Assembly (NCBI GenBank): GCA_016778465.1
Contig: JADHPM010000004.1
Coordinates: 1-64,000, forward strand
Source: Methylophilaceae bacterium
GTDB taxonomy: Bacteria > Pseudomonadota > Gammaproteobacteria > Burkholderiales > Methylophilaceae
Length of the DNA: 64,000 nt
Direction: 5' to 3'
Shown: positions 36,668 through 45,053 of the stretch, one piece after another
Numbering within the stretch: the stretch's first letter is position 1
Layout: each line of letters starts with the position of its first letter
Notes under the pieces: generated by a model
The model's database searches: none
Seen by the model: only the letters and a program-made list of their open reading frames with translations
Told to the model about the DNA's origin: nothing
Translations under genes and position numbers: made by a program

Positions 36668-37160
36668 ATTACCATCAGCTCAAGATTTAATACTCAAGCT
36701 AGAAAATCAGATTAAATTGATCCTTGACGATTCAACATGTCTTATTGGTATCCCAACAGGAGGACATCTAATCATTAAACAATTATGTAAAAACTTGGGT
36801 GATCATTTAAATTATGGGCTTATTGATGGCTCTTTTTATCGTGACGATTTAGATATTAGTGGCGTTAAAATAAAAGAAAAAACATCAAACATTAATTTTG
36901 ATATTGAGAATAAAAAAGTCATCTTGATTGATGATGTCTTTTACACAGGCAGGACTATTAGAGCTGCCATCAACGAATTATTTGACTACGGAAGACCAAA
37001 AGAAATACTCCTCTTTGTTTTGGTTGATAGAATGAAAAATGAATTACCAATCAAGCCAACATATTCAGCATACGAATTAAACAATGACAAGGGTGACTAC
37101 ATCAATCTAGTTGAAGAAAGAAATATCTTATCTTTTGAGGTAAAAAATATTGGCCGATAA
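36660..37160 (+). CDS. pyrR: PyrR-family bifunctional regulator/uracil phosphoribosyltransferase
   Basis: PyrR in Gram-positives binds pyr mRNA and controls attenuation; proteobacterial copies beside pyrB are often thought to be mainly phosphoribosyltransferases. The 166-residue product has the PRPP motif [17 protein letters not shown] (about 96-112). It starts at TTG inside ruvX and overlaps pyrB by 11 bases. I could not identify a PyrR-binding anti-antiterminator upstream, since ruvX coding sequence occupies that space. Confidence 0.9.
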
Positions 37161-38106
37161 TTTTCAGGTAACAAAGGATGGAAAACTAAAACATCTATTA
37201 TCTATTGACGGCTTGAGTAAAGAAATTATTATTGATATTTTTAATATGGCCGAATCTTTTTTAAAAATTGGTTCTCGAGATGTTAAAAAGGTCCCTCTCT
37301 TAAGGGGAAAAACAGTCTGTAATCTCTTCTTTGAAAACAGCACAAGAACAAGAACTACTTTTGAAATCGCTGCCAAAAGACTTTCGGCAGATGTAATAAA
37401 TCTTGACATACCCACCTCATCGCAATCAAAAGGTGAATCTATTTTAGATACAGTTAACAACTTAATTGCAATGGGTGCAGATATTTTTGTAGTAAGGCAT
37501 GGAATACCAAAAACCCCTGAAATAATTGCCAAAGCTGTCAATAATGATGTCCATATAATTAATGGTGGTGATGGTAATCATGCCCATCCCACACAGGGAT
37601 TACTTGATTCATTCACCATACGGCGCTTTAAAAAAGAATTTTCCAATTTAAAAGTTGCAGTCGTAGGTGATATTAAACATTCGCGGGTAGCAAGATCAGA
37701 GGTTTGTGCCCTATCAACTTTGGGCGTTCCTGAAATCAGAGTTGTTGGGCCCGATAATCTTATGCCTGATGATCTAGATAATCTCAATTTAATTCACTTT
37801 AATGACTTAAAAAAAGGATTAAAAGATGTCGATGTCATTATGATGTTGAGGCTACAGAAAGAGAGGATGGAGGATGGTGATATTCCCTCGGAGGAAGATT
37901 ACTTTAAACAATTTGGATTGAAACGAGATCACCTTAGAATAGCACATCCTGATGCAATTATTATGCACCCTGGACCAATTAATAGAGGCATTGAGATTGA
38001 ATCAGAGGTGGCAGATTGCAAGCAGTCAGTAATTTTATCTCAGGTAACATTTGGAATTGCAATAAGAATGGCTGTGATGACCATGTTGATAAGTAAAAAA
38101 TTATGA
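37150..38106 (+). CDS. pyrB: Aspartate carbamoyltransferase catalytic subunit
   Basis: PyrB condenses carbamoyl phosphate with aspartate in the first committed step of UMP synthesis. The 318-residue product carries [12 protein letters not shown] (about 56-67), with the carbamoyl-phosphate loop, HPTQGLLD near 146, and MHPGPINRG near 278. Translation begins at TTG (37150) within pyrR. The dihydroorotase-like pyrC that normally follows in betaproteobacteria is absent, and the next gene is a tiny independent unit. Confidence 0.95.
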
Positions 38107-38130
38107 GAAAAAAAATAGTTTCGCTATAAT
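38101..38130 (+). promoter_or_regulatory. Predicted promoter for the Lys/Ala-rich mini-gene
   Basis: A perfect -10 TATAAT (38125-38130) lies 41 bases before the mini-gene ATG. A poor -35 candidate, TTATGA (38101-38106), sits 18 bases upstream and overlaps the pyrB stop. Transcription from about 38137 to the terminator at 38334 would make an RNA of about 200 bases. The -10 is convincing; the -35 is not. Confidence 0.5.
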
Positions 38131-38170
38131 CACCATTTATTTCTAGTAACTATCTCAAAGGGAACAAAAC

Positions 38171-38287
38171 ATGTTAGAAAAATTAATTAATGCTTTATTA
38201 GGAAGGTCTCCAGAAAGTAAACCAGCTGCAAAGAAACTAGCTGCAAAGAAACCAGCTGCAAAGAAACCAGCTGCAAAGAAAAATTAA
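38171..38287 (+). CDS. Small Lys/Ala-rich repeat protein (histone H1-tail-like), 38 residues
   Basis: The frame begins MLEKLINALLGRSPESK and is followed by four repeats of PAAKK or LAAKK ending in Asn. The first ten residues can form an amphipathic helix, and the tail is strongly basic, like the AAKKP tails of histone H1-like and other nucleic-acid-binding proteins in betaproteobacteria. The coding interpretation is supported by an ATG preceded by AAAGGGAACA, an exact TATAAT upstream and a strong terminator 20 bases after the stop. I do not recognise a named family. DNA or RNA binding is an inference from composition. Confidence 0.65.
   Translation: MLEKLINALLGRSPESKPAAKKLAAKKPAAKKPAAKKN
38222..38281 (+). 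repeat. Four tandem copies of a 15-base repeat
   Basis: CCAGCTGCAAAGAAA occurs four times in direct tandem (38222-38236, 38237-38251, 38252-38266, 38267-38281). The second copy differs by one base, CTAGCTGCAAAGAAA. Each unit encodes one five-residue (P/L)AAKK repeat in the mini-gene, so copy-number slippage would change the tail length without breaking the frame. Confidence 0.95.
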
Positions 38288-38307
38288 TGATTCTGCAAGC
38301 TTATTAC

Positions 38308-38334
38308 AACCAAGCTTATGCTTGGTTTTTTTTT
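38308..38334 (+). terminator. Rho-independent terminator between the mini-gene and yggS
   Basis: AACCAAGC (38308-38315), loop TTAT, GCTTGGTT (38320-38327) form a perfect 8-base-pair stem, and the last two T's begin a run of nine T's (38326-38334). This is a textbook intrinsic terminator for transcripts reading rightward. It ends only eight bases before the yggS start codon, so it must end the mini-gene RNA yet lie in the yggS leader. Confidence 0.92.
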
Positions 38335-38342
38335 AGGTAAAA

Positions 38343-39008
38343 ATGACTAATATTAAGGAAAATATAGAAATCCTGACAAAACAGGTTAAGGAATTAAGCT
38401 TTGATATTAAGCCAACAATTGTGGCTGTAAGTAAGCAACAGAGTTACTTGAAAATCATAGAGGCTTTTAATGCTGGACAAAGAGTTTTTGGTGAAAATTA
38501 TTTGCAAGAGGCTATGGATAAACAAAAAGATCTTAAAGATTATCCTATTGAGTGGCATTTTATTGGCCCTATACAAAGTAATAAATGTAAATTAATTGCT
38601 GAAAATTTTGATTGGGTACAAACGGTTGATAGAATGAAAATTGCAAGACGCCTTGATGAAAGTTGTTCGGGCAAAATAATTAATATTTGTATTCAAATAA
38701 ATATTAGTGAAGAGCCCACGAAAAGCGGAATTATGCCAAACCAAGTTGACACATTTGCCAAAGAACTGAGCCAATTTAAATATTTAAATCTAAGGGGAAT
38801 AATGGCCATCCCCTCGCAAAATAAAAAAGATGGTAATTTAAAACATGAATTAGTGTCATTAAAAAAAATTTTTGTTAACTTAAAAAATCAAAATAATAAT
38901 ATTGATACTTTATCAGTTGGCATGTCTAATGATTATAAATTAGCCTTAAATTATGGTTCAACCATGATAAGAGTTGGAAGTCATATTTTTGGAGCAAGAG
39001 CAAAATGA
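38343..39008 (+). CDS. yggS: PLP homeostasis protein (YggS/PROSC family)
   Basis: YggS binds pyridoxal phosphate and balances its cellular supply; it has no known catalytic turnover. The 221-residue barrel protein has the PLP-lysine segment PTIVAVSKQ (about residues 24-32, Lys about 31), FGENYLQEA (about 50-58), WHFIGPIQSNK and the phosphate-binding SVGMSNDYKLAL. It starts eight bases after a terminator T run. AGG in that spacer (38336-38338, approximate) may serve as ribosome site. proC follows with four-base overlap, a very common pairing. Confidence 0.93.
   Translation: MTNIKENIEILTKQVKELSFDIKPTIVAVSKQQSYLKIIEAFNAGQRVFGENYLQEAMDKQKDLKDYPIEWHFIGPIQSNKCKLIAENFDWVQTVDRMKIARRLDESCSGKIINICIQINISEEPTKSGIMPNQVDTFAKELSQFKYLNLRGIMAIPSQNKKDGNLKHELVSLKKIFVNLKNQNNNIDTLSVGMSNDYKLALNYGSTMIRVGSHIFGARAK

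Positions 39009-44036: not shown

Positions 44037-45053
<1,017 letters not shown>

Follow-up and report, generated by a model that had tools for sequence, protein, structure and literature searches.

A frame of 38 codons between pyrB and yggS in a Methylophilaceae genome is, as judged from sequence conservation, a real and selected protein-coding gene. The gene has the layout of a separate, short transcription unit, is probably transcribed and translated, and is seen only in this genus so far. Its predicted product, here called the mini-protein, is modelled as two parts, a nearly invariant 11-residue amphipathic helix and a repeated Lys/Ala/Pro tail that is predicted to be disordered. By analogy with known proteins, the helix may dock on the cytoplasmic membrane while the polycationic tail holds DNA or RNA; this reading is given a probability of about 0.45.

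The pyrB-yggS locus and its conservation

The gene is found in a window of 64 kb (the whole stretch of DNA that was analysed, 64,000 nucleotides), which comes from a source genome of 1.24 Mb in 21 contigs. The features of the locus are collected in Table 1. The letters of the TATAAT, the ATG, the 38 codons, the 15-base repeat copies and the terminator, as given by an earlier sequence-only reading, check out. The unit which that reading placed at 38101-38334 is also found, but its left boundary is not kept, since the interval overlaps the end of pyrB (38106) by 6 bases.

Table 1. Coordinates of features at the pyrB-yggS locus, numbered from the first letter of the window
Feature	Position	Strand	Description
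pyrB flank (aspartate carbamoyltransferase)	37150..38106	+	NCBIfam NF002032 above cut-off
Putative promoter, sigma-70-type	38103..38130	+	weak -35 ATGAGA 38103-38108, 16-base spacer, exact -10 TATAAT 38125-38130
Ribosome-binding site	38157..38166	+	AAAGGGAACA
Mini-protein frame MLEKLINALLG...	38171..38287	+	38 codons, ATG 38171, stop TAA 38285-38287 included
Codons 1-11, predicted amphipathic helix	38171..38203	+	hydrophobic face L2, L5, I6, L9, L10
Tail, four 15-base tandem copies	38222..38281	+	PAAKK-LAAKK-PAAKK-PAAKK
Intrinsic terminator	38308..38334	+	AACCAAGC-TTAT-GCTTGGTT + T run; stem-loop 38308-38327, nine T 38326-38334
yggS flank (PLP-dependent enzyme family)	38343..39008	+	NCBIfam TIGR00044 above cut-off

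The -35 and -10 elements in the window together display 10 of 12 consensus matches, and purine-rich stretches are also found before the ATG in the relatives listed. A short linker separates MLEKLINALLG from the (P/L)AAKK units, and 8 bases lie between the end of the terminator and the start of yggS. The neighbouring genes exceed the cut-offs of the curated PyrR, PyrB and YggS models. Of the 4 tandem arrays that were reported for the 64 kb, the mini-protein repeat scores highest (120, with the next at 51), and a search of the source genome for paralogues returned one match only, the mini-protein gene itself. A free-standing unit of this size had been called conspicuous. The unit is real, but the 236-base gap between pyrB and yggS is one of seven gaps of at least 230 bases that a crude calling of ATG frames leaves in the window, and its size alone is therefore not exceptional.

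The sequence-only reading had allowed for a frame that is not conserved in relatives, and the opposite was found: the N-terminus is present in 22 of the 31 genomes of the genus. In five further genomes the unit is incomplete or noisy. The repeat and terminator are found at a contig end in G017, G024 and G030, and only the 3' half of the terminator, also at a contig end, in G022; G029 has a noisy copy with a TATAAT and with one stem base of the terminator changed. The remaining four genomes (G002, G013, G021 and G025) gave no yggS match and the locus was not seen there. No assembled junction among those seen is without the mini-protein gene. The contig ends inside the frame in 5 of the 22 genomes with the N-terminus, and for G026, G011 and G012 the apparent missing 3' halves are found at the ends of other contigs. 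Of the 27 genomes in which at least a trace of the unit is seen, 9 have a contig end inside it (8 in the frame, and G022 in the terminator). Because the repeat breaks assemblies, the mini-protein is easily missed in catalogues.

The signals that bracket the frame are conserved with it, as expected of the self-contained unit that had been proposed. All 22 genomes have an exact TATAAT, placed 31-50 bases upstream of the ATG, compared with 2.9 expected from first-order Markov shuffles for a TATAAT 20-60 bases upstream. The sequence TTGCA(A/T) is found 16 bases before the TATAAT in all nine genomes that have pyrC here, and the -35 is weak in genomes without pyrC at the locus; in G014 and G023 the promoter scan gave the exact -10 without a -35 partner. 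All 17 frames that reach a stop have a matching terminator, AACCA(A/G)GC..GCTTGGTT, after them; the frame of G020, counted among the 17, includes a stretch of N. The terminator motif is found in 23 of the 31 genomes, once in each, at the mini-protein locus only.

Codons 2-11 show a pS of 0.66 and a pN of 0.11, or a pN/pS of 0.16 (22 genomes and 231 pairs, which are not independent of one another). L2, K4 and L9 are invariant in the 22 genomes while their codons change. Since synonymous change is high and the amino acids are kept, selection acts on the amino acid sequence, and by this comparison codons 2-11 are under purifying selection. A chance frame is ruled out by the conservation of the N-terminus, the TATAAT and the terminator.

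Two observations were made on the 3' side of the unit. The terminator stem AACCA(A/G)GC/GCTTGGTT is nearly constant across the genus; the loop varies, and the synonymous sites of the frame vary widely. The stem is possibly more than a terminator, with controls that are few and mixed. Hairpins found with a loose finder after gene 44055-45053 in 6 of 9 relatives differ from that of the window. Two further gene families, each examined in 10 genomes, gave hairpins in 5 and 4 genomes, with a related stem in 4/5 and 4/4 of these. Because control families share related stems too, it is disfavoured to call the mini-protein stem special. The other observation is that in 6 of the 17 genomes with a stop-reaching frame (G001, G003, G006, G008, G016 and G020) a TATAAT is located directly after the T run of the terminator, 5-6 bases before the probable yggS ATG. 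Such a position would fit a yggS mRNA without a leader; in the window the arrangement is not seen.

Helix and tail of the mini-protein

Positions 2, 5, 6, 9 and 10 of the N-terminus are hydrophobic in 22/22 genomes and swaps occur only among L, I, V, F and M; an acidic residue at position 3 is conserved as well. The hydrophobic moment of codons 1-11 is 0.64, a value reached by 1.05% of the 17,740 11-mers from the called proteins of the window, and by 0.17% of them when a mean hydrophobicity of at least 0.6 is added. None of the 58 other N-termini called in the window reaches 0.64 (one does so when both values are set at 0.6). The helical N-terminus of the sequence-only reading is borne out by AlphaFold2, which models a helix over residues 2-9 with a mean pLDDT of 88 over residues 1-10 and no element after it; beyond the helix the model is of low confidence (mean pLDDT 65, pTM 0.26). 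Two relatives depart from the pattern. The moment is lower in G009, at 0.50, a value that 13% of permutations reach, and in the error-rich genome G029 the helix reads differently after residue 5.

The tail is variable in length and in sequence. Among stop-reaching frames without unknown bases, the protein ranges from 38 residues, in the window, to 120 in G006, and the net charge of the whole protein is +9 in the window and up to +42 in relatives. K and R make up 31-52% of the residues after residue 12 in 21 of 22 genomes, with the exception of G020, where the sequence is interrupted by a run of N. PAAKK is the unit in many genomes and P(A/V)AKKK in others; G016 mixes the two, G006 alternates K and R, G010 has mostly TVAKKK, G026 has AAAKKPVKK, and the tail of G014 looks frame-shifted near its end. 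It seems that the constraint on the tail is one of composition and charge.

Repeat number, which the sequence-only reading proposed to compare across strains, does vary among relatives: six complete relatives that use mainly PAAKK have 8 to 20 units, compared with four in the window. The count of four could be an assembly undercount, but a simple collapse of the repeat is less likely in the window because the LAAKK variant is present there. In 11 genomes with at least 3 units, PAAKK units differ at 1.0% of bases within a genome and at 5.7% between genomes, as repeat slippage would give.

Related proteins and possible function

The sequence-only reading did not recognise the mini-protein as a described family. 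This holds for the N-terminus, to which no Pfam or NCBIfam model could be matched. Comparable tails, however, are already known from HC2, AlgP and PhaF, and the mini-protein is regarded as a variant of the H1-like tail proteins. The likeness to histone H1 that had been noted in the composition is found in part. With a gathering cut-off of 40 bits for Pfam PF07382 (HC2), two of the four members tested, both long relatives, are above it (L004 with 59.4 bits and L010 with 59.0 bits), but the window protein is below it at 19.8 bits, and L018 has no match. The HC2 match is partly compositional, since Extensin_1 matches L004 and L010 too. The histone H1-like models NF038053 (from Burkholderia) and NF038052 gave at best 49.6 and 47.3 bits among the four members, below their cut-offs of 80 and 135. 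The mini-protein shares with HC2 and NF038053 a low-complexity Lys/Ala composition; it differs in that these matches begin at residue 12 or later, past the helix.

Three known proteins offer parallels. AlgP of Pseudomonas aeruginosa is described, in passages of its report, as an H1-like protein with KPAA repeats that is needed for even granule spacing; its repeat tail binds DNA and it is proposed to tether polyphosphate granules to the chromosome (PMC9239181). The tail composition of the mini-protein fits the KPAA-type tail, and both proteins have a Lys/Pro/Ala repeat tail and a predicted helical N-terminus (the AlgP side from passages of PMC9239181). The comparison is one of descriptions rather than of an alignment with AlgP, and the mini-protein differs in its 38-120 residues, its 11-residue helix and the lack of a ppk1 match in most genomes of the genus. 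PhaF of Pseudomonas putida, according to part of its report, has an amphipathic helix followed by a DNA-binding repeat domain, which is disordered in the ligand-free state, and also a short leucine zipper for oligomerisation (PMC3574117). An amphipathic helix followed by a repeat tail is common to both, a likeness for which homology is not claimed. Unlike PhaF, the mini-protein has no phasin match at E up to 10 in a Pfam scan of four members, it appears by eye too short for the long helix and zipper of PhaF, and the source genome has no PHA synthase match. Noc of Bacillus subtilis has a conserved amphipathic helix at its extreme N-terminus that binds the membrane, a variable spacer, and DNA binding, as described in part of its report (PMC4331003). 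The likeness to Noc is one of logic only, and DNA binding by the mini-protein would be its putative counterpart. The differences are the absence of a ParB-type match at E up to 10 in the Pfam scan of four members, the far smaller size of the mini-protein, and the expectation of no specific DNA site.

Other proteins were also observed to have tails of this type. In another genus of the family Methylophilaceae (g44), two proteins pair Lys/Ala/Pro tails with amphipathic ends, which counts in favour of the membrane-docked reading given below. The one at G089 L118:1405-1695 has 96 residues, with MKKLFSFIFGIFSS followed by a long Lys/Ala/Pro tail; it lies at a different locus and has the architecture of the mini-protein without clear homology to it. 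The other, at G129 L120:1288-1626, is rich in Lys/Ala/Pro and has a C-terminal amphipathic helix GLFASIGAFFKKLLG, and a second Lys-rich frame is located 3' of it. At G033 L113:1288-1758 there is also a protein that by eye looks TatA-like and has a long PAAKK tail.

In the reading preferred here, the amphipathic helix would sit in-plane in the cytoplasmic membrane, and the phosphate backbone of DNA or RNA would be bound by the polycationic tail with no sequence preference. Many copies together could then hold the nucleic acid at the membrane or compact it at that site, and the length of the tail, altered by repeat slippage, would tune reach and avidity. A membrane-docked polycation is favoured because the helix is amphipathic, the tails of AlgP and PhaF bind DNA, and the Noc helix reaches the membrane. 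Against it, a helix of 11 residues with a conserved acidic residue at position 3 would be a weak membrane anchor, and the tail in the window has only four units.

The membrane-docked version is favoured over a nucleoid- or RNA-condensing H1-like protein whose helix would serve for self-association or protein docking, which is held as a tentative second choice. The tail and helix data are also compatible with such a condenser, and the oligomerising leucine zipper that PhaF has besides its amphipathic helix would be a precedent (passages of PMC3574117). A further nucleoid protein is also plausible, since the source genome gave three matches of HU/IHF type and none to H-NS. However, one and a half heptads would be short for a coiled coil, and the phenylalanine found at positions 5, 6 or 10 in some relatives suits a lipid face at least equally.

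Lysine-rich tails generally bind polyanions, and the mini-protein might act as a generic polycation on RNA or ribosomes, either as an RNA chaperone or as a factor associated with the ribosome. The tail of the window protein is matched by a valine-tRNA ligase model, with a score far below the cut-off of that model (10.2 compared with 1783 bits). This role is unlikely, as it leaves the most conserved part of the protein, the amphipathic helix, without a function.

That the unit is a small RNA or, as had been suggested, a dual-function RNA with the peptide secondary is very improbable. The promoter and terminator do enclose about 200 bases and the terminator stem is almost letter-for-letter constant, but the best Rfam score is 21.5 bits with a gathering score of 70, folding is not above that of shuffles (z -0.23), the length from start to terminator varies with the repeat, and the low pN beside the high pS shows that it is the amino acids that are kept.

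Least probable of all is the role proposed for AlgP, a tether between polyphosphate granules and the chromosome. The KPAA repeats and granule-spacing role of AlgP (passages of PMC9239181) and a ppk1 match in the source genome (G000:C15:53832-54356) would fit such a tether. However, ppk1 (PF02503) is matched in only 6 of the 31 genomes (4 of the 14 that are at least 90% complete), and a general polyphosphate role is unlikely because 9 of the 13 genomes that are at least 90% complete and have an intact N-terminus, among them the single-contig G003, G008, G016 and G019, lack it (the polyphosphate kinase covered being ppk1). A role at PHA granules is likewise unlikely because PhaC_N, taken as a PHA synthase proxy for granules, has no match in the source genome (control matches in 1 of 14 genomes).

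History of the locus

Two gene orders are found in the genus. In 9 of the 22 genomes pyrC lies between pyrB and the mini-protein gene, and in 13, the window included, it is absent there; yggS comes next in both wherever the contig continues. The sequence-only reading had the unit replace pyrC. This is ruled out by the nine genomes in which the gene is found downstream of pyrC, and the gene is still present in the 13 without pyrC at this place.

At loci from other genera the gene after pyrB is usually pyrC. In all seven of these loci that have both pyrC and yggS, two of them labelled only 'uncultured proteobacterium', yggS comes next after pyrC, and a reading by eye of the three forward frames showed no frame of this kind between the two genes; most non-genus pyrB loci have no yggS within the stretch examined and are hence uninformative. 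Profile matches in 17 non-genus genomes start at model position 10 or later, i.e., in the tail. A few weak matches outside the family have query starts of 2-6, with E of 0.008-0.7, in frames of 51-973 residues. These orders are most simply explained if the gene originated, or was acquired, between pyrC and yggS, with a later loss of pyrC from this place in some lineages. The source genome has a dimeric-type dihydroorotase elsewhere (TIGR00856, 447.7 bits with a cut-off of 292.95; G000:C1:55596 region, L102), and the pyrC beside pyrB may have been dispensable because this enzyme was kept.

A phage origin was also considered. No match was found in phage records at E up to 10, in a search where the BLAST simple-repeat filter masks much of the tail, and none of 600 pattern matches in viral contigs was confirmed; with so short a query both are weak tests. 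No description of the mini-protein was found in open-access full text (subscription papers lie outside this scope), and the words 'histone' and 'lysine' are absent from the main text, supplements aside, of a transcriptome paper (PMC5120137).

It is possible, though doubtful, that the mini-protein is the smallest DNA/RNA-to-membrane tether known, made of only one in-plane membrane anchor plus a polycationic tail of a length determined by repeat slippage, conserved across a genus of streamlined genomes and apparently invented there between pyrC and yggS. A lineage with small genomes has kept and polished a gene that apparently arose at this place, even where the neighbouring pyrC was lost. If the mini-protein is indeed a minimal tether or condenser, it would show how little protein can organise nucleic acid, and the genus would supply a natural series of tail lengths for testing.
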